This document shows, piece by piece, positions 6,861 to 56,796 of a DNA stretch of 64,000 nt. The translations under genes and the position numbers were made by a program. The stretch is from contig PKDZ01000039.1 in the NCBI GenBank assembly GCA_002862785.1, positions 54,198 to 118,197 on the forward strand. The letters are read 5' to 3'. Every line of letters starts with the position of its first letter. Position 1 is the first letter of the stretch. Source of the stretch: Flavobacteriales bacterium (GTDB taxonomy: Bacteria > Bacteroidota > Bacteroidia > Flavobacteriales_D > Sanyastnellaceae). Under the pieces are notes generated by a model. It was not told the origin of the DNA, did no database searches, and saw nothing but the letters and a program-made list of their open reading frames with translations.

Positions 6861-9800
6861 ATGAAACGATATGCAATGTGGAAGCTTGCTTCCCTTCTTT
6901 GCGCGGTCCTGATGACCGGAACCCTCTCCGCTCAAACCGCTTATCTCTCGATGCTCGCGGACCCCACCGACGCTTCGAGCGCTCGGTTTGTCAAAATCGA
7001 GAACAATTCAGGGGCGAACCTTGACATGACCGGCTGGTCCCTTCTCCGTTGGACCAACGGCAACGCCGAGCCCCAATCCTCTTCGTTTGACTTGGGCACC
7101 TACGGGACCTTGTACGACGGAGGCTGCATCTACGTGGCCAATTCTGCTTCCGGGTTCCAGGACGCTTACGGTTTCGCCCCTGACTTGGTGGCGGGCACCG
7201 GCGGACCAGCCGACAGCAATGGTGACGACCAGATTGCGCTAAACAACGCAGCAGGCGAGATCGTGGATTTCTTTGGTGTGATCGGAGAGGACGGATCCAA
7301 TACCTGCCATGAATTTGAGGACGGATATGCCCTCCGCACGACCACGGCCCCTGACGGGGAGACGTGGAACGGTGCGAACTGGACCATCTACAGCGATGGC
7401 TCGAGTGCGTCCGGATGTGTTGACCACAATGCTGGGCAAGAGCAGACGGCCGCGGCCATCGCCTCGCTCGTTTCTGCGTGCCCCGCAGACGGCGGCGGAA
7501 GCAACGATGCCAATGCTTGCGGTGTCGAGGGCACAGTCATCGAGTCAGGGAGCTATTTCTATTCCCCAAGCAACGTGATCGTCCCTGTGGGAGGCACAGT
7601 GGTGTGGGTCAATGTCGGCGGGTTTCACAACGTCAACGGGGACATCAACTCATTGGATGGCCAGCCTTACGGCAACCCAGAAGCGTTCTCGTTGGGCGCC
7701 GTGAGCGGTGGTACGCCAGAGACGCCCACCTGCATTGGCAGCTACACCTTCACGGTGCCAGGTGTGTACACCTACGATTGTTCCATTGGGAGCCACGCGG
7801 CCCAAGGCATGGTGGCCACAGTCACTGTCGGAACGGGTGGTTGCACCGACAACACTGCGGTCAACTACAGCGCGAATGCTGATTTTGACAATGGCTCGTG
7901 TGAGTTTGCCCAAGAAGCGACCATCAGCGCCATCCAGCAGGACATGGGGGCAGACGACAACGGCACCTATGACGGTCAGACCGTCCTCGTGCGGGGCGTC
8001 GTGACCGGCGTGTACGGCAGCAACACGTCCATCCAAGACGGAGAGGGCGCGTGGAGCGGTATCTTCATCTACGTTGGTGGCGGCCTGCTCGACGGCACCA
8101 CGCAAGTCGCCATGGGCGACAGTGTGCTCGTGGAAGGCACCGTCGGCAGCTACAACGGAGGCACCCAGTTGACCGGAGCCTCTGCGACCATTCTCAACAG
8201 CGGCAACACCCTTCCGGCCCCGCTCGTGCTGTCCACGGCCGACGCCAATCTTGAGGAGTACGAAGGCGTGCTCTGCCAGGTCACGGGCGCCATCACGGGC
8301 GAACCCAACAACTTCGGCGAGTTCACGATCGACGACGGATCGGGCAACCACACGGTGGACGACCTCGGATACGACGGATACACCGAGCAGGGCGCCATGT
8401 TGGGCGATTCCTACCGGGTGACCGGCGCCATCAACGGCAGCTTCGGCAACAGCATCGAGCCCCGTGACGCGGACGACTTCCAGAAGCTCGGCTGCACCAA
8501 CCCCGCTGCCAACAACTACGACGCCGACGCCATCATCGACGACGACAGCTGTGAAGTCGTGGACGGCGCCATCTCCATCGCCACCATCCAGCAGGGCCAA
8601 GCCCTCGACCCGCCGGTGTTCACCGATTCCTTGGTGACCGTCAGCGGCATCGTGACCGGCGTGTACGGCAGCCTGTTCAGCTTCCAGGAAGGCACGGGCG
8701 CCTACAGCGGCATGTTCGGATTCAACCCGGAGGTCGCCGTCACGGTCGGCGACTTCGTGGCCTTGACCGGTACCATCAATGAATACTTCGGGCTCACACA
8801 GATTATGGGTGTGGACGGCAATCCCATCGCCACGACCATCGTGAGCCAAGGCAACGACCTGCCCGCAGCCGAAGTGCTCGGCACCGCTGCCGCAGACATG
8901 GAGGAATGGGAAGGCGTGCTGGTGCAATCCACCGGTTCCGTGTCTTCTCCAGACCTCGGCAACGGCGAATGGGGCATCGACGACGGTTCCGGTGAACTGC
9001 GTGTCGACGACCGCGGCTGGGACCACCAGGCCACCGGCGAGGTGGTCATCAACGCCCAGTTCCAGGTGACGGCCCCGTTGCACTACAGTTTCGGCAACTA
9101 CAAGCTCATCCCGCGCGGTGAGGGCGACGTGCTCCTGTACGGATGCACCTTGCCCAATGCCGACAACTACGTGGCCGGCGCCGACATCGACGACGGGTCC
9201 TGCACGGGCAGCGAGCCCTGCGACCTGTTCTTCAGCGAGTATGCCGAAGGGTCCTCCAACAACAAGTACCTCGAGATCTACAACCCGACCGATGGTCCCG
9301 TGAGCCTCGCGCTCTACTCGCTCGCCAACCAGTCCAACGGAGCCAACAACTCCGATCCGGCAGCCGCAGAGTGGGACTACTGGAACGATCTCTTCGCCAC
9401 GGGCGCCTCCATCGGCGCCGGGGAGACCTACCTGATCGTGCATCCGAGTGCCAGCGCGGCCCTGCTCGACAGCGCCGACGTCACCTTCGGCTTCCTCTCC
9501 AACGGAGACGATGCCTGGGGCCTGATCTACAGCGCCAATGCCTCCTTCGGCAACGGAGGAGACTGGGAACTGATCGACGTGGTCGGTGAGCCTTACGGTC
9601 TGGATCCCGGCTCCGGTTGGGACGTGGCCGGCGTGACCAATGCGACGCAGAACCACACCCTGCGCCGGAAGTCCTCCATCTCCTACGGAAACGGCGGAGA
9701 TTGGGCCGCTTCGGCCGGCACCAATGCCGACGACAGCCAGTGGATCGTCCTCGAGAACGATTACGCCCTGAACAACGGCCTGGAAGGCTACAACAGCCAC

Positions 9801-11507
9801 GACTTCACCGGGCTCTGCGCCTCCAACACGGAAGGCTGCACCGACCCCTTTGCCATCAACTATGACCCGACCGCCACGGTGGACGACGGCAGCTGCCTGT
9901 TCATCCCCAACGTAACGATTCAAGAGATCAACGAGGGCTTGACATCGGGCATCGTGACCACCACGGGCATCGTGACCGGTGTGTACCTCACCGACGACGG
10001 CTCCTTCGGCGGACAGGCCGCCTTCACCATGCAGAACGGAACAGGGGCCTTCTCCGGAATCTGGGTGCGCGGTGCGGATGCCACGCCGGAGTCCATTGGC
10101 AACGTCCAGGTCGGCGATGAGGTGGAGATCACCGGTGCTCCAGACAGCTGGTACGGCAACGACTTCTTCCCGAACCCCGCCCTCACCATCCTGTCCTCCG
10201 GCAACCCACTGCCGGCGGCCGAGGTGCTCGCCACCGGTGATGTGAACCTCGAAGACTGGGAGGCCGTGCTCGTCACGGTGACTGCGGAATGCGACAACCC
10301 AGATCTCGGATTCGGAGAATGGTCCGTCAACGACGGCAGCGGTGCTGCCCGCATCAATGACCGTGCCTATGACGCCCTCGATGCGGGCGTTGTGGAAGCC
10401 GGCCGCACCTACCGCGTGACCGCCCCGACCGGATACGCTTACGGCAACTGGAAGATCGAGCCGCGGGACAGCACCGACGTGGTGCGCCTCGGTTGCACCG
10501 ATTCCACCTTCCCCAACTACTGGCCATTGGCCAATGAGGACGACGGGTCCTGCGCCAACCTCCCCGGTTGCACCGACCCAGCTGCCGACAACTACAACCC
10601 GGATGCCACCTCCGACGACGGAAGCTGCATCATCACGGGCTGCACCGATCCGACGGCCCTCAACTACAACGAGGCGGCGACGGTGGCAGACAACGACCTG
10701 TGCTACTACACCCTCCCCAACGTCATCGTCAACGAGATCCACTACAACCCCTGCGACAACCAGGGCGGGGACTTCGATTGGGAGTATGCGGAGTTCTACA
10801 ATGCCGGTGACGAGGCCGACCTGAGCGGTTACGAAGTCTGGTTCGCCTTCTCCAACCCGGAGAACATTTCCCTTGCCCTGACCTTCCCGGCCGGCACGAT
10901 CATTCCGGCGGACAGCTACTTCTTGGTCGTCCCGGGAGTGGTGGCCGAGGCCAACTACACGGCCATGGGCATCACGTGCTTCGTCATGGACAATGGCAAC
11001 TGGGGCAATGGCGGGGGCACCGTACAGCTGCAGGATGCCTTCGGCAACATCGTGGACGCCGTCACCTACGACGACGCCGATCCCTGGCCTTCTCAGGAAA
11101 TCAGCATCCTGGGCAATGTTTTCGCGGCCAGCCCTGACGGCGGATGTGCCTCGCTCGAGCTCATCCTGCCGACGCTCAACAACGACGATCCCGACAACTG
11201 GCAGGGAAGCTGGGTGGACAACGGCACCCCGGGTGCGGCCAACAGCTCCGCCTTCGGTTGCACGGACGGTGCCGCCTGCAACTACTCGGCCGTCGCCTTG
11301 TTCGACGACGACAGCTGCACATATGACTGCTACGGCTGTACGTACCCCGAGGCCAACAACTACGACGAGACGGCAACGGTCGACGACGGCACCTGCGAGG
11401 TGACGGCCGAGGACAATTGTCCGACGGACCTCAACGACGACGGCACGACGTCTGTGAGTGACCTTCTCATCCTGCTCGGTGCGTTCGCCACCGACTGCGA
11501 GGAGTAA
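6861..11507 (+). CDS. Large secreted multidomain protein: lamin-tail (LTD)-like domains, cupredoxin-like domain, three OB-fold-like repeats, nine GCTD...DDGSC repeats, dockerin-like C-terminus
   Basis: Signal peptide MKRYAMWKLASLLCAVLMTGTLSAQ; repeats GCTDPAADNYNPDATSDDGSC etc.; LTD-like FFSEYAEGSSNNKYLEIYNPTDGPVSL; C-terminus DLNDDGTTSVSDLLILLGAFATDCEE. Confidence 0.85.
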   Translation: MKRYAMWKLASLLCAVLMTGTLSAQTAYLSMLADPTDASSARFVKIENNSGANLDMTGWSLLRWTNGNAEPQSSSFDLGTYGTLYDGGCIYVANSASGFQDAYGFAPDLVAGTGGPADSNGDDQIALNNAAGEIVDFFGVIGEDGSNTCHEFEDGYALRTTTAPDGETWNGANWTIYSDGSSASGCVDHNAGQEQTAAAIASLVSACPADGGGSNDANACGVEGTVIESGSYFYSPSNVIVPVGGTVVWVNVGGFHNVNGDINSLDGQPYGNPEAFSLGAVSGGTPETPTCIGSYTFTVPGVYTYDCSIGSHAAQGMVATVTVGTGGCTDNTAVNYSANADFDNGSCEFAQEATISAIQQDMGADDNGTYDGQTVLVRGVVTGVYGSNTSIQDGEGAWSGIFIYVGGGLLDGTTQVAMGDSVLVEGTVGSYNGGTQLTGASATILNSGNTLPAPLVLSTADANLEEYEGVLCQVTGAITGEPNNFGEFTIDDGSGNHTVDDLGYDGYTEQGAMLGDSYRVTGAINGSFGNSIEPRDADDFQKLGCTNPAANNYDADAIIDDDSCEVVDGAISIATIQQGQALDPPVFTDSLVTVSGIVTGVYGSLFSFQEGTGAYSGMFGFNPEVAVTVGDFVALTGTINEYFGLTQIMGVDGNPIATTIVSQGNDLPAAEVLGTAAADMEEWEGVLVQSTGSVSSPDLGNGEWGIDDGSGELRVDDRGWDHQATGEVVINAQFQVTAPLHYSFGNYKLIPRGEGDVLLYGCTLPNADNYVAGADIDDGSCTGSEPCDLFFSEYAEGSSNNKYLEIYNPTDGPVSLALYSLANQSNGANNSDPAAAEWDYWNDLFATGASIGAGETYLIVHPSASAALLDSADVTFGFLSNGDDAWGLIYSANASFGNGGDWELIDVVGEPYGLDPGSGWDVAGVTNATQNHTLRRKSSISYGNGGDWAASAGTNADDSQWIVLENDYALNNGLEGYNSHDFTGLCASNTEGCTDPFAINYDPTATVDDGSCLFIPNVTIQEINEGLTSGIVTTTGIVTGVYLTDDGSFGGQAAFTMQNGTGAFSGIWVRGADATPESIGNVQVGDEVEITGAPDSWYGNDFFPNPALTILSSGNPLPAAEVLATGDVNLEDWEAVLVTVTAECDNPDLGFGEWSVNDGSGAARINDRAYDALDAGVVEAGRTYRVTAPTGYAYGNWKIEPRDSTDVVRLGCTDSTFPNYWPLANEDDGSCANLPGCTDPAADNYNPDATSDDGSCIITGCTDPTALNYNEAATVADNDLCYYTLPNVIVNEIHYNPCDNQGGDFDWEYAEFYNAGDEADLSGYEVWFAFSNPENISLALTFPAGTIIPADSYFLVVPGVVAEANYTAMGITCFVMDNGNWGNGGGTVQLQDAFGNIVDAVTYDDADPWPSQEISILGNVFAASPDGGCASLELILPTLNNDDPDNWQGSWVDNGTPGAANSSAFGCTDGAACNYSAVALFDDDSCTYDCYGCTYPEANNYDETATVDDGTCEVTAEDNCPTDLNDDGTTSVSDLLILLGAFATDCEE

Positions 11508-41084: not shown

Positions 41085-43274
41085 TCAGGGGCAGGTGCAT
41101 CCGAAGACGCCGAGCAGGATGAGCAAATCAGTCGTGCCGACGAGGTCGTCCAGGTCGAGGTCGGCGGGGTGCGGTCCTACGTTGCCGAAGTTGGCCAGCA
41201 TAAACAGCACGTCCTCCACGGTTTGGGCCCCATCGCCATCGATGTCTCCGAGGCAACCTCCATACGGGCCGATGCCGCAGGTGTTGTTGATGGAACCATC
41301 GAAGTAACTGTTGGCCAGATCACAGGCCTGCGTGCCGCAGACAATGCCCATGAGGCGGCCGCGGATGTCGTCAGTTACTGGATGGATGCCCCCCCAGATG
41401 CGGGACAAACTGCACTGGTCGGAGGCGTCGTAGTAGGTGGCCCACTGCAGGGTCACATCCACCGACGGTCCGATTTCGAAGACGAGAAAGTCATCCTGAG
41501 GACATTCGAATTCGCCCATGCCCCCAGGGAAGAAGGGGTCCCCGGTGATGCAGGTCAGGACCTCGGCCGCAGACCGGCTGAAGGTCGAATGGCCGGAGAC
41601 GTACCCGGCGAACGGCGGGGTCACGAAGCTGGGCCGCTGGTAGGGCCACCAGTTCTCGGCCAGGATCCAACCTACGCCGGCGATGTTGCCGGCGGTGTCG
41701 ATGGGAATGTCCAGCCCGTTGTCGGCCTCGTAGGTGTCGATGTAGTCAGGACCTTGCCACGTATAGACCTTGACCTTGCCGATGTTTTCCCCTCCGATTC
41801 CGGCCAAATCGTCCGTGTCGTCCACGAGTTCGATGAAGCCCGGGTAGAGCGGAATGCCGTTGGGGCTGTAGCTCGGCAATGCCGGATCCGTGGATTGACC
41901 TTGGTCGGCCATGTAGCGGATGGCGGAGACGGGACGAGCATAGTCGTAATAGCCTTTCACACTCCAGGCGGCAATGGCGGCGTCGTGGACGGCACCGCCC
42001 AACGTGAGGTAGGCTTTGACCTCATACTCGAGCGGGTCGAGCTCTTCTCCCTCGCCCATCCAATCGCGGGTGAAGTCCGGGTGGGACATGACCTCGTTGA
42101 GGATGCTGAACCAGTGACCCGGGGGGGTCTCGCTGTCCGGGCCATCCGCCCAGAATTCCGCGAGGATGCGGGTGTAGTCTCCAAGGGGCACGATCTGCTC
42201 CTCGTAGGGAAGTCCGGTGTGCGGATTGAGGTCGTGTCCGATGCCGACGTCACCGCCGTTGAAATAGGTGTAGAAGTCCCCGTAGTCGGCGATGTCCTCC
42301 GGGAGAGACGGCACGTTTCCGATGGTGGCGGGGCTCGCGTCCACCATCACCCCGTTGTAAGGATCATGATGCGACTGCCAGATGCTCACCATCGCGAAAT
42401 GGTGCTTGTACATGCTGTCCTCGGCGAAGGGCTGGTCGCCTCCGATGTAGACCGGCGGGCCGGGATCGAGCCAAGTGGGCCACATCTCCCCATCCCGTTC
42501 GTACATGATCATCTGGTCATTTTCCAAGGCAAACGGTTGGACCCACCCCCACTCGGGGCTTTGGAACGGCGGAGCGCTCTCCAGCACCTCTCCGGACTGG
42601 TCGACGAAGCCGTCGATGGCGAGGGGCTGCCAGCGGTTGGGGTCGATCACGGTCGGATTGCCCGGGTCGGACACCACGAGTTGGTCGTTCAGGGGCTCGT
42701 AGTAGACGTTGGAGTAGTCGAAGGCCTCATTGGCTCCATCCTGCAGTCCGAAGGCGATGACCTGTTCGGCGATGTAATTTCCCAGCGCGGCCGGAGAACC
42801 AAAAGCGTAATTGGTGGACGTTAGGGAAGGATCATAGCCCAAAGCCGTGAGCAGGGAGTCGAACCGCGCCTGGGAGGGAATGACCCCCGGGGAGTTCGAA
42901 TAGCGGTGGCTCAGCACCCGATAGGCGGCATAGGAAGCCGCTTCCTTCCGCGCCGTGGGGATGTCGAGGAAGGGGAGGATGTTCTCTGGAATGCCGTCAA
43001 ATTCAGCGGTGTAGCCACCCACGGTGTGGCCAAGGAGCGTGGGCTCAGCGGTCTCGTCGTACGCCGCCCACGCATCGTACATGGCCAGGGAGACATGGTA
43101 CAGGTTCCGGGCGTGAACGGGGGGTCGGGCGAAATCGTCTCGGATGCCCATCAGTTGCGCCTCGATCCATTCGAACGCCACATCGTGTTCCGCTTCCTGA
43201 GCTTCAACGGTGCCAATCGGCGAGCCAAGAAGGGTCAACAGAGCGGCTGCGATGGAAAATTGACGAAGGGGCAT
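41085..43274 (-). CDS. Secreted vanadium-dependent haloperoxidase-like (PAP2 superfamily) protein with dockerin-like C-terminal repeats
   Basis: KGYYDYARP (Kx6RP), GYVSGHSTFSRSA (SGH), SRIWGGIHP (SRx5H); signal peptide; C-terminus GDIDGDGAQTVEDVLFMLANFGNVGPHPADLDLDDLVGTTDLLILLGVFGCTCP. Confidence 0.88.
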   Translation of the reverse strand: MPLRQFSIAAALLTLLGSPIGTVEAQEAEHDVAFEWIEAQLMGIRDDFARPPVHARNLYHVSLAMYDAWAAYDETAEPTLLGHTVGGYTAEFDGIPENILPFLDIPTARKEAASYAAYRVLSHRYSNSPGVIPSQARFDSLLTALGYDPSLTSTNYAFGSPAALGNYIAEQVIAFGLQDGANEAFDYSNVYYEPLNDQLVVSDPGNPTVIDPNRWQPLAIDGFVDQSGEVLESAPPFQSPEWGWVQPFALENDQMIMYERDGEMWPTWLDPGPPVYIGGDQPFAEDSMYKHHFAMVSIWQSHHDPYNGVMVDASPATIGNVPSLPEDIADYGDFYTYFNGGDVGIGHDLNPHTGLPYEEQIVPLGDYTRILAEFWADGPDSETPPGHWFSILNEVMSHPDFTRDWMGEGEELDPLEYEVKAYLTLGGAVHDAAIAAWSVKGYYDYARPVSAIRYMADQGQSTDPALPSYSPNGIPLYPGFIELVDDTDDLAGIGGENIGKVKVYTWQGPDYIDTYEADNGLDIPIDTAGNIAGVGWILAENWWPYQRPSFVTPPFAGYVSGHSTFSRSAAEVLTCITGDPFFPGGMGEFECPQDDFLVFEIGPSVDVTLQWATYYDASDQCSLSRIWGGIHPVTDDIRGRLMGIVCGTQACDLANSYFDGSINNTCGIGPYGGCLGDIDGDGAQTVEDVLFMLANFGNVGPHPADLDLDDLVGTTDLLILLGVFGCTCP

Positions 43275-45901: not shown

Positions 45902-48118
45902 TCACTGACGCTCGCGAAGGATCTGGACCGATCCCGTGAAGCGCTGACCGTCGCTCCGGTCAAACTGATAGTAGTACGTCCCGTCCGGGCAGCCTTCGCC
46001 GTCCCATTGGCCGGTGTAGTCTGTGCTGGAGTACACCTCGTTGCCCCAGCGGTTGGTGATGCGCAGGTCGCTACCCGCATAGCACTCGAGGCACTGGATC
46101 TGGAACTCGTCGTTCTTGTTGTCCCCGTTGGGGGTGAAGACGTTGGGAATGATCATCTCGCAGATGTCCACGTCCACCGTGGCCTGATCGCTCAACCCGC
46201 ACTCGTCCGTGACCACCACGATGGTCGTGGTGAGGACATCACCGACGTACATGCTGCCGGTTTCGTTGGTGAACACCACATTGGAGCCGTACTCCGTTCC
46301 TGGACCGTTGGCGGCGGTCAGGGGCGTACCGTCCTCGTCGGTGAAGGTGTAGCTCTGCGTGCCCCCCTCGATGCCGAGCACGGCGGATTCACCAGGGCAC
46401 AGATCGATGTCGTACGCCACCACCGGGTCGAAGGTGGGCACGAGGACGGTCCACATGGCCTCGTCGGTTTGGCCGCAGGCATCTTCCGCATCGACCGTGA
46501 AAGTCTCGTTGGTGCTCGGGCTCACGTTGGCGTTGCTACCGGTGGCATTGTCCACATTGGAGGACCATGACCAGGTGACGGTGCCCGTACCGGAAAGGAC
46601 CTCGGTGCCCAGTTGGACGGGGTCTCCAGGACAATAGGGTTCGTCGAGCTGGACAATCTGCACCTCGAGTTCAGCGGGCGGAACCAAATCGACCGGCAGG
46701 ACCAGCGAGTCGCCACAGACATCCGTTACGGTCAGCGTGATGGTCGTCGGTTCCGGATCCTCGTATTCGATGGTGGCCGTGCTGTCCCCCGTGCTCCAGC
46801 CGAAGACGAACGGGGCATAGCCTTGCGTGACGAGGGCGGAGACCTCCACGGGAGGGCACAGGGCCACCTCGTCGGGAACCTGGACCAGCAGTGGGTCCGG
46901 GTCCTGGATGACGAGGGTGGCCGAAGCCAGGGTGGTGTCCCCGCACAGGTTGATGTAGAGGTACTCGAGCGTGACCGTTTCAGGTCCTTCCGCGAGGTTG
47001 TCGTCGACGACAATCAGAGGAATGAGCAGCTCGCTGACGCCGGCCTCCATGACCAACGAGGTGTCGATGGGCTCGAAGTCGATGCCGGACTGGGCCGTGC
47101 CGTACACCGTCACCTCCAGTGTGTCAGCGAAGTCCGCAAGGGGGCGGATGACGTTGAATCCCGCCTCGTTGCATCCTTCCACCACGACTGAATCGCCCAA
47201 GAAGACAGGAGCGCCCCCGATGCTGGCGGATGCTTCGATGCTGGCACTGTTCGAGGAGAAGCTGCCGCCCTCGAGGAACACCGCGCTGTCGAAGGCCGTG
47301 TCTCCAGCGTCAGCGATGGCAATCTTGATGTGGTAGGTCTGACCGCACTGGATTTGGGCAGCCGCAGTCAAAATGACCGTGAATCCGTCGAACTGGACCG
47401 AGGTGGGGTCACTGTTTCCGTCGTTGTCGACGTAGTAGTCGGTGTTGAGGTTCCACTGCTCGGAGACTTGGTTGCAGTTGGAGGCGGTTCCAGCGAACCC
47501 GGGCTGTCCATTGTTCACGGAATTGATCGTCACCGGGATGGACTCCCCCGCCAAGACGGGGTTGGGGATGGTGGCCAGGTTGATGGCGTTGTCCGCATAC
47601 GGACCCACGATGCCCGGGCCGGAGAGGAAGAACCCAAAGGCGTCGTTGACCGAGCCGCAGACGTATTCGTTGTACTCCTCGGAAGCGAAGATGTAATTGA
47701 AAATCAGCGAGTCACCGGAAGGGACAAAGTCGAATTCGAGGATGGCCGCATCGTTCGTGTTGAAGGTGCTCAGCGCCGTCAGGTCGGGGTCTCCCGCTCC
47801 GAAATTGCCGCCGCCGAGTGCAGCGCCGCCGGCATCATTGGGGCCGATGGCCACGTCGATGTCGCCCGTGGCTAACATGATGCCGTCGAGGATGGCGATG
47901 TTGGTGGCGTTGGCATCGAAGCTGCCGATTTGGTTCAGGTCACCGCTGAAGGTGATGTTGCTGACCTCCACACCCTCGCCGAGCAGGTAGTCGAGCAGGG
48001 CTTCCTCCGGGGTGACGGTGTTGTCCGTGACAAGCTGGGCGCCCGCTCCGGCGGCCGCCAGCAACAGGGGAAGGAGACAGAGCGCCTTGGTGGTGTTCAG
48101 AATCCGATTGTTGAGCAT
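45902..48118 (-). CDS. Large secreted protein with choice-of-anchor L-like N-terminal domain and T9SS type B (gliding-motility-associated) C-terminal domain
   Basis: FDFVPSGDSLIFNYIFASEEYNEYVCGSVNDAFGFFLSGPG; C-terminus IIPNVFTPNGDNKNDEFQIQ...ITNRWGNEVYSSTDYTGQWDGEGCPDGTYYYQF. Confidence 0.93.
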   Translation of the reverse strand: MLNNRILNTTKALCLLPLLLAAAGAGAQLVTDNTVTPEEALLDYLLGEGVEVSNITFSGDLNQIGSFDANATNIAILDGIMLATGDIDVAIGPNDAGGAALGGGNFGAGDPDLTALSTFNTNDAAILEFDFVPSGDSLIFNYIFASEEYNEYVCGSVNDAFGFFLSGPGIVGPYADNAINLATIPNPVLAGESIPVTINSVNNGQPGFAGTASNCNQVSEQWNLNTDYYVDNDGNSDPTSVQFDGFTVILTAAAQIQCGQTYHIKIAIADAGDTAFDSAVFLEGGSFSSNSASIEASASIGGAPVFLGDSVVVEGCNEAGFNVIRPLADFADTLEVTVYGTAQSGIDFEPIDTSLVMEAGVSELLIPLIVVDDNLAEGPETVTLEYLYINLCGDTTLASATLVIQDPDPLLVQVPDEVALCPPVEVSALVTQGYAPFVFGWSTGDSTATIEYEDPEPTTITLTVTDVCGDSLVLPVDLVPPAELEVQIVQLDEPYCPGDPVQLGTEVLSGTGTVTWSWSSNVDNATGSNANVSPSTNETFTVDAEDACGQTDEAMWTVLVPTFDPVVAYDIDLCPGESAVLGIEGGTQSYTFTDEDGTPLTAANGPGTEYGSNVVFTNETGSMYVGDVLTTTIVVVTDECGLSDQATVDVDICEMIIPNVFTPNGDNKNDEFQIQCLECYAGSDLRITNRWGNEVYSSTDYTGQWDGEGCPDGTYYYQFDRSDGQRFTGSVQILRERQ

Positions 48119-55488: not shown

Positions 55489-56796
55489 TCAGCCCTTGAG
55501 AATGCGCTTGCTCATCACCTTGTCGCCGTTGATCAGGCGGATGGTGTAGAGACCGGGGCGCAGCTGGTCGAGATCCGTGAACCGGATCGGAGCGTCGAGC
55601 TGACCACCGGCGAGGGAGATCACGCGCTCGGGCATGCCCACGTGGTTCAGGAGCTGGAGGGTGGCACCGGCCTTGACCACACCACGGATCGTGATGCTGA
55701 GGCTCTCGCCGAAGGGCACCGGATAGGCACCGATCTCGAGCTCGTCGCGGCCGTCGTTCTCAGACTGCACGTCGCTGGCGTTGGCGGAGTCGACGCCAAT
55801 CGCCATGGCGAGGTTGTACTGAATGGACTGGCCATTCACGTAGAGGCGACCGAAGTTGGCGTCGCTGGCGCCCTTGGCGAGGGCCGCGATGCGGGCACCC
55901 TGCGGACAGGTCACCTTGAGCAGGACGGTCTGGTCCTTGCTGACGGCACCCTTGTCGAAGGTGAGTTGGAGCTCACCGTCGGTGACGTCTTCGCTGGTGA
56001 AGAAGCCGGTGGCGATGATGCTGTTGTCAAAGCGAAGCAGAGCGTACTCGAAGCTGAAGCCCGGCTCGACAAACGGAGTGGCGAGCTTGATCTCACCGAT
56101 CCGTCCCTTGTCACAGGCATAGAAGAGCTGCATGAAGGTCTGGCCTTCGAAGTTGAGCACACCCGTGCTGTTGCGCTGGGCAGTCACACAGTCACCTTCG
56201 ACGTTCAGGTCGAGGCCGGCAGCAGAGCGGGCATGGGCGCCGGTCGTCTGGCTGTCGTTGCCGCGGGTGCGGCCCTCATTGGCGGCGTCGAGTTCCGGCG
56301 TCGCACCGCGCAGGCCAGACGTGAACTTGAGGTTCTTGGCCTCAGGGGTGCCACCGAGGCGCACCTCGCCGATGAAGTTGGTGGCGTCGTCCGTGGCCGG
56401 CATCACGAGGCTGGCTCCGTTGTAGGCCTTGATCATGATGATGAACTCATCACCCTGCAGAGCCGGGATGGACAGGTTGTCCATGAGGAGGCTCACGCCA
56501 TTGTAATTGTCAGCCGTAAAGGTTTTCAGGGCACGCGGCGTCATGTGGGCGTCCATGACACCCATGTCGACTGTGCCGCCATTGAATTGCACGCTGGCGA
56601 TCACTTCGAGGTTGGCGATGGTGCCCTTGCCGCAAGTGCGGTACGTCTGCGACACCATGGTTTCCACGAAGATGGCCGTGTTGACCTGGTCCTGCTCCAC
56701 CTTGCACTGGATGTCATCCTGCGGGGTGGCGGCGAGGGCCGTGTTGGAGAAAAGAATGCCGAGAAGGGCAAACGAGAGGAAAGAGAAGCGAATCAT
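55489..56796 (-). CDS. Secreted T9SS type A cargo protein of unknown function with internal duplication
   Basis: Signal peptide; two related modules (SQTYRTCGKGTIANLEVIA / MQLFYACDKGRIGEIKLAT); C-terminal type A CTD GAYPVPFGESLSITIRG...LRPGLYTIRLINGDKVMSKRILKG. Confidence 0.85.
   Translation of the reverse strand: MIRFSFLSFALLGILFSNTALAATPQDDIQCKVEQDQVNTAIFVETMVSQTYRTCGKGTIANLEVIASVQFNGGTVDMGVMDAHMTPRALKTFTADNYNGVSLLMDNLSIPALQGDEFIIMIKAYNGASLVMPATDDATNFIGEVRLGGTPEAKNLKFTSGLRGATPELDAANEGRTRGNDSQTTGAHARSAAGLDLNVEGDCVTAQRNSTGVLNFEGQTFMQLFYACDKGRIGEIKLATPFVEPGFSFEYALLRFDNSIIATGFFTSEDVTDGELQLTFDKGAVSKDQTVLLKVTCPQGARIAALAKGASDANFGRLYVNGQSIQYNLAMAIGVDSANASDVQSENDGRDELEIGAYPVPFGESLSITIRGVVKAGATLQLLNHVGMPERVISLAGGQLDAPIRFTDLDQLRPGLYTIRLINGDKVMSKRILKG

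Follow-up and report, generated by a model that had tools for sequence, protein, structure and literature searches.

Among the closest described relatives of the module reported here are the type I and type II dockerins of cellulosomes (PF00404; 2y3n_B, 4u3s_B), duplicated F-hands that are usually C-terminal on secreted proteins, mainly plant-wall enzymes. Known dockerins are closed head to tail by a ring-stacking clasp (PMC4728124). Of the curated families, NCBIfam NF041540 (dockerin_GC, 'GC-type dockerin domain-anchored protein', cut-off 29 bits) comes nearest and describes a two-F-hand C-terminal tail; the term 'GC-type dockerin' was not found in the open-access literature searched, where dockerin, Flavobacteriales and T9SS do occur together in one paper, on lignocellulose degradation by a microbial community. 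Two proposed systems rely on cohesins: Ca. Stygibacter (Cloacimonadota) encodes dockerin enzymes and a CTD-bearing cohesin scaffoldin, for which cohesin assembly was proposed (PMC8542988), and the planctosome of Nemodlikiaceae is a proposed, cohesin-dependent model for Planctomycetes in which dockerins reside on LTD- and peptidase-type exported proteins (PMC6461901). The signals of T9SS itself are CTDs of type A (PF18962, TIGR04183), type B (PF13585, TIGR04131) and type C, the last being a family (cl41395) of ~100 aa, as in F. johnsoniae ChiA (PMC10202324).

The window (the whole stretch of 64,000 nucleotides of Flavobacteriales DNA that was analyzed) encodes two exported proteins closed by a shared motif, as an earlier note made from the sequence had observed; both open reading frames and both tails were confirmed (Table 1). 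Domain profile matches of the 6861-11507 product consist of LTD domains and a plastocyanin-like copper-binding domain, with no endonuclease catalytic domain reported among them; three OB-like stretches match ExeM/NucH nuclease models, but only the N-terminal part of these models. The tail of this protein, CPTDLNDDGTTSVSDLLILLGAFATDCEE, has bracketing Cys, calcium-loop Asp/Asn at positions 1, 3, 5 and 12 and the helix DLLILLGAF, and its last Cys is followed by two residues and then the stop. The haloperoxidase ends in CLGDIDGDGAQTVEDVLFMLANFGNVGPHPADLDLDDLVGTTDLLILLGVFGCTCP, a two-repeat tail that corresponds to a complete dockerin, with one residue between the last Cys of repeat 2 and the stop; the note had read these two repeats as one, and the two tails, while alike in ending with the motif, thus differ in having one repeat and two. 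Neither protein matches the type A profiles PF18962 and TIGR04183 or the type B profiles PF13585 and TIGR04131, so the tails do stand where a recognizable T9SS CTD is absent. As to the contrast proteins, the type B assignment at 45902 holds, and the product of 55489, which had been taken for type A cargo and PorU, has a type A-like match but one that falls below the cut-off; with 435 aa it is also short for PorU, which is typically much longer.

Table 1. Coordinates in the window of the two tailed proteins, their parts, and two contrast proteins
Feature	Position	Strand	Description or basis
1548-aa CDS	6861..11507	+	exported protein, one-repeat tail at C-terminus
Predicted Sec signal peptide (MKRYAMWKLASLLCAVLMTGTLSA/QT)	6861..6932	+	sequence, heuristic scan
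GCTYPEANNYDETATVDDGTC repeat	11334..11396	+	precedes many one-repeat tails in the window's family
Single F-hand tail CPTDLNDDGTTSVSDLLILLGAFATDCEE	11418..11504	+	profile A1, 50.2 bits
729-aa CDS	41085..43274	-	vanadium-haloperoxidase-like exported protein (DUF6851, VCPO_2nd)
Predicted Sec signal peptide (MPLRQFSIAAALLTLLGSPIGTVEA/QE)	43200..43274	-	sequence, heuristic scan
F-hand repeat 1 (CLGDIDGDGAQTVEDVLFMLANFG)	41184..41255	-	profile; AlphaFold2 helix, residues 17-25 of 41088-41267
F-hand repeat 2 (ADLDLDDLVGTTDLLILLGVFGCTCP)	41088..41165	-	profile; AlphaFold2 helix, residues 45-53 of 41088-41267
Choice-of-anchor L protein (contrast, outside the system)	45902..48118	-	type B CTD, TIGR04131 46.6 bits
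Weak type A-like CTD protein (contrast, outside the system)	55489..56796	-	TIGR04183 18.3 bits, cut-off 23

D-x-N-x-D-G-x5-D and a helix after it make up the dockerin F-hand, and the best PDB match of the two-repeat profile A3 is the B. cellulosolvens dockerin 2y3n_B (E 1.7e-8). When the two-repeat tail of the haloperoxidase was modelled by AlphaFold2 with 31 relatives (pLDDT 91.6), the top 24 Foldseek matches of the model were all dockerin entries, the best being again 2y3n_B with a TM of 0.86, and the best E-value was only 3.4e-3; the modelled tail has two F-hands in the dockerin arrangement. The tail of the 6861-11507 protein has one repeat only, and is therefore not a two-F-hand dockerin; modelled together with its upstream repeats it gave a pLDDT of 83 and a pTM of 0.44. 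At the calcium-ligand positions of the loop (1, 3, 5 and 12), D1 and D12 are invariant and N/D3 and D5 predominant in profiles A1 and A5, as is expected of a loop predicted to bind calcium. The module thus resembles the type I and II dockerins in its fold, calcium-loop residues, duplicated F-hand and position, and differs from them in that many tails have one F-hand, the cargo is varied and a cysteine bracket occurs instead of the ring-stacking clasp.

The cysteines were counted in 90 non-redundant two-repeat tails, nearly all from Flavobacteriales with a few from Planctomycetota. Between the helices two cysteines are found in 71 tails, three in 2, none in 17 and a single one in no tail; 87 of the 90 have both cysteines of the outer pair, and 127 of 131 one-repeat tails have both of their cysteines. 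Because the cysteines occur as pairs, their covariation is suggestive of two disulfides, an inner one and an outer one that would close the tail head to tail. In the Fimbriimonadales tails the first cysteine lies inside calcium loop 1 (DVNGDGC; L169, L171, L283, L296, L307) rather than before the loop, which, judged by residue placement, is a different predicted disulfide layout. The fact that the inner pair of two-repeat tails is either present or absent as a whole is the basis of another idea, which we regard as quite unlikely, namely that a one-repeat tail is half a dockerin, whose fold becomes complete when two chains pair; following the two-fold symmetry of dockerins, two such tails would pair with reciprocal disulfides. 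If so, half-dockerins would cross-link exported proteins among themselves or with a hub that has two repeats, and a covalent tail-to-tail assembly would take the place of CTD-mediated attachment by T9SS.

The window's own genome (G000) contains no protein that reaches the NF041540 cut-off: its best match is 28.7 bits, only 3 of 48 tail proteins match at E≤0.01, and the two proteins of the window have no match even at E≤1; Dockerin_1 gives 32 matches in this genome, mostly weak. The cut-off is, however, passed in several genomes of the same family and by two-repeat tails of Phycisphaerae and Fimbriimonadales; the relatives that pass it include G342 (41.4 bits), G045, G413-G415 and G419. NF041540 covers the two-repeat form, and the kind of module is therefore known; one-repeat tails fall outside the model, as does the use that this lineage makes of the module. 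What is new is the one-repeat, cysteine-bracketed variant together with its context, a family-wide replacement of T9SS CTDs.

Recurrence of the motif in the window's genome (2.44 Mb) was quantified with profile A1, which was built from 29 repeats, has 30 positions (consensus x-x-C-x-x-D-x-N-G-D-G-x-V-x-x-x-D-x-L-x-x-L-G-x-F-G-x-x-C-x) and carries no C-terminal constraint. It finds 86 matches at E≤1, of which 75 are at E<1e-4, and the recurrence is not due to chance. Proteins ending in the motif, whose genome-wide count the earlier note had proposed, number 54: in these open reading frames a repeat lies no more than 10 residues from the stop, mostly with 0-1 residue past the profile end. The motif is thus common and C-terminal, contrary to the possibility raised in the note that it might be rare and not C-terminal elsewhere. 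A crude scan predicts a signal peptide in 39 of the 45 tail proteins with a complete 5' end, and the cargo is of many kinds, among them LTD proteins, metallopeptidases, haloperoxidase, GH16 and proteins with starch-binding domains or FG-GAP repeats. Type A CTDs are fewer in this genome, with 37 PF18962 matches compared to ~54 tail proteins.

Some copies in the same genome are internal, and the tail module therefore need not be terminal. Two glycosidase-like proteins of 1293 and 1158 aa (C8:4000-23000) contain an internal tail repeat and end in a type A CTD. In them the signal peptide and N-terminal domain are followed by GCTD repeats and the tail, and the catalytic domain comes after these, an arrangement that looks like the fusion of a tail protein with a cargo protein of T9SS. 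The tail is likewise internal in a 243-aa frame (signal peptide-tail-LTD; C1:47500-51500) and in a 716-aa frame in which a two-repeat tail separates two hydrolase parts (C19:4000-9000). Internal copies, including those of the two CTD-ended glycosidases, are easier to reconcile with a docking module than with an export signal of terminal type. Two small adjoining open reading frames at C6:49000-52000 carry cysteine-free F-hand tails, DLNGDGIITTSDLILLLGQLG and DLNGDGLISTSDLLLLLGQLI, and show no clear signal peptide.

The strongest result of the analysis is that the tail replaces the type A CTD on the same protein bodies. The window's haloperoxidase has homologues in 109 of the 114 genomes of its uncultured Flavobacteriales family, and 78 of their C-termini, from 19 genera, were read, 5 of them cut by contig ends. 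All 73 complete C-termini are of one kind or the other: 31 have a type A CTD and 42 the tail, where CTDs were called with a profile trained on 50 motif-chosen CTD-like proteins rather than with PF18962, and one tail (G045:C8) was counted by eye, its second repeat not being placed by the profile. Four further loci agree with the pattern; the four haloperoxidase C-termini in regions spanning two genes all have CTDs. The haloperoxidases of the tail-poor genera g143, g146 and g152 all have CTDs and those of the tail-rich genera g1, g157, g158 and g160 all have tails, with copies of both kinds in G045, G324, G340 and G342. The best tree of these proteins requires three switches between the two endings, and a single switch is not rejected (p-AU 0.235). 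A candidate paralogue at L071:3709-5655 was dropped on account of a tree branch length of 10.

Exchange extends to other proteins. In one pair of tandem paralogues (L185), 40% identical, one member has a tail and the other a CTD (TIGR04183, 33 bits); the same is true of paralogues at C1:12500-16000 of the window's genome that are 65% identical over 402 aa, the CTD in this case scoring only 16.4 bits, below the cut-off of 23. For another tail protein of this genome (L080), an alignment of 822 aa links it to proteins of genus g152 that end in a CTD. A CTD homologue over at least 120 aa exists for 79 of 238 distinct tail proteins when these are compared with a set of only 50 CTD proteins, some of the pairs sharing repeated domains rather than being orthologues, and many of the alignments between tail and CTD proteins stop where the CTD begins. 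Tails and type A CTDs per Mb are inversely related across the 114 family genomes (rho -0.68); on genus means the correlation is not significant (rho -0.36, p 0.11), so that relatedness may explain part of the inverse relation. It appears that this family has exchanged one system of addressing its proteins for a different one.

Since the tail has replaced the CTD on the same protein bodies, it most likely does the CTD's job by another route. The reading we favor, and hold to be somewhat probable, is that a GC-type dockerin tail took over the delivery or retention function of the CTD by docking onto a putative non-cohesin partner of the envelope or cell surface. The tail, in the form of one or two cysteine-bracketed calcium F-hands at the extreme C-terminus of Sec-exported proteins, has spread to ~50 proteins per genome in the window's family and there stands in for the type A CTD on protein bodies of the same kinds. 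Sec export, supported by the signal peptides, would come first; the tail would then probably fold, stabilized by calcium and disulfides, either within the periplasm or beyond it, and the folded tail would dock its protein to the envelope or surface partner, as the CTD serves its homologues. The receptor, any crossing of the outer membrane and the final location of the cargo belong to what we infer here, as do calcium binding and disulfide formation in vivo. The interchange of CTD and tail on the haloperoxidase in 19 genera amounts to a natural tail-swap experiment, by which the function of GC-type dockerins can be tested directly.

It could also be supposed that the tail is a mere stabilizing C-terminal cap, locked by calcium and disulfides against proteolysis and having no partner or sorting role. 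Paired cysteines and conserved calcium ligands do suggest stability, and no partner emerged from the cohesin profile or the neighboring genes; a mere cap, however, need not swap with a CTD, yet it is this sorting domain that the tail replaces on the same proteins, and genomes with many tails have fewer type A CTDs. We consider the cap very unlikely.

The search for a partner bears on the possibility of a classical cellulosome-like assembly, in which the tails would bind cohesins, either those of a scaffoldin anchored by T9SS, as proposed for Ca. Stygibacter, or in the way proposed for the planctosome. The fold is indeed that of a dockerin, and a single genome of the family, included under two handles (G339 and G415), has the sole cohesin over the cut-off, in a 668-aa frame (C45:54090-57389; L368/L369) that also has a GC-type dockerin match; a sub-threshold cohesin match was seen in G324. 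However, Pfam cohesin (PF00963), a profile that would miss a very divergent cohesin, has no match in the window's genome or in 16 of the 19 others tested, i.e. in 17 of 20, among them G342 and G343, which are closed or nearly so, and a Phycisphaerae genome (G412) with at least 150 tails, and a single-repeat tail is half of a normal dockerin. The cohesin partner expected of a cellulosome-type system was thus not found by Pfam in most of these genomes, the tail is not part of an ordinary cohesin-dockerin system, and the cohesin-type anchoring suggested earlier finds no support, nor is the tail an ordinary dockerin with an identified cohesin, the other outcome then envisaged; an assembly of this type is in our view scarcely probable. 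With Ca. Stygibacter the system has in common dockerin-tailed exported enzymes beside a T9SS-type CTD, and differs from it in that no cohesin scaffoldin was found. With the planctosome it shares dockerins on LTD- and peptidase-type exported proteins, and the tail is common to Phycisphaerae, but neither G412 nor the window's genome has a Pfam cohesin. Among the 119 tail loci listed there is no recurrent neighbor gene or linked receptor; the largest neighbor cluster, tRNA synthetase-like, accounts for 6 of them.

The tail is rare in the phylum and abundant in the window's family. At E≤1e-6 it occurs in 3 of 297 phylum-wide genomes, these being the window's own, one of the same family and one of the same order with one match; a genome of another family of this order has a single C-terminal tail, CPTDLNGDGITNTADFLIFAPAFGTSCN (L107, G041 C3:3711-6791). 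Within the family 109 of 114 genomes have it, with matches per genome ranging from 0-2 in genera g143 and g146 up to at least ~70 (24-71 in g1, g158 and g160), and type A CTDs are present in all 114. A collection-wide DNA pattern scan, which favors tails whose last Cys is followed by exactly one residue, returned at least 119 stretches; nearly all among the matches listed are Flavobacteriales MAGs, and the other sources among them are Fimbriimonadales, Phycisphaerae/Phycisphaerales and another Planctomycetota record. Tail matches number 75 and 62 in two Fimbriimonadales genomes (G409, G410), where SprA is represented only by fragments of 40-45 bits, and SprA was not found in the Phycisphaerae genome G412; every family genome tested has SprA at high score.

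These numbers bear on the proposal that T9SS has, besides types A, B and C, a fourth class of export signal in the tail, which the family's own T9SS would read. The tail does occupy the position of the type A CTD on homologous proteins, SprA is present in every family genome tested and type A CTDs in all 114, and the existence of three CTD classes (PMC10202324) makes a further one more plausible. Against this, the module is not confined to genomes in which SprA was found; it abounds in Phycisphaerae and Fimbriimonadales, two groups that yielded no SprA beyond the fragments mentioned, which indicates that it is independent of T9SS in general, while most Bacteroidota outside the family lack it and two proteins with an internal tail still end in a type A CTD. 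The type A CTD and the tail are mutually exclusive at the same C-terminal position of homologous exported proteins, but they share no similarity of sequence or fold, the CTD being an Ig-like beta-sandwich and the tail a small, helical module of 29-56 residues; the type C CTD is by description about 100 aa long. The tail is thus probably not a T9SS signal as such, and a fourth class is unlikely. The earlier note is therefore confirmed in its observation and partly supported in its interpretation: an alternative sorting or attachment signal stands in the form of a dockerin-type C-terminal tail that replaces the T9SS CTD, as fold and positional exchange indicate, and an alternative signal of T9SS itself does not.

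Two ideas that are usually merged, that of a C-terminal address and that of a T9SS signal, become separable under the docking reading, and where T9SS cargo is counted or predicted by CTDs a large share of the exported proteins of this family would be missed. Among the tail-bearing records of the collection, a Deltaproteobacteria genome (UBA9254; L194) was considered as coming from a further phylum and set aside as contamination, having 2 tails only, on short contigs, with GCTD repeats of the Flavobacteriales type. Records titled Chryseobacterium gleum (L163, L172, L180; CAMCYM01, CAMAYP01) carry tails of the family type and are probably misnamed MAGs.
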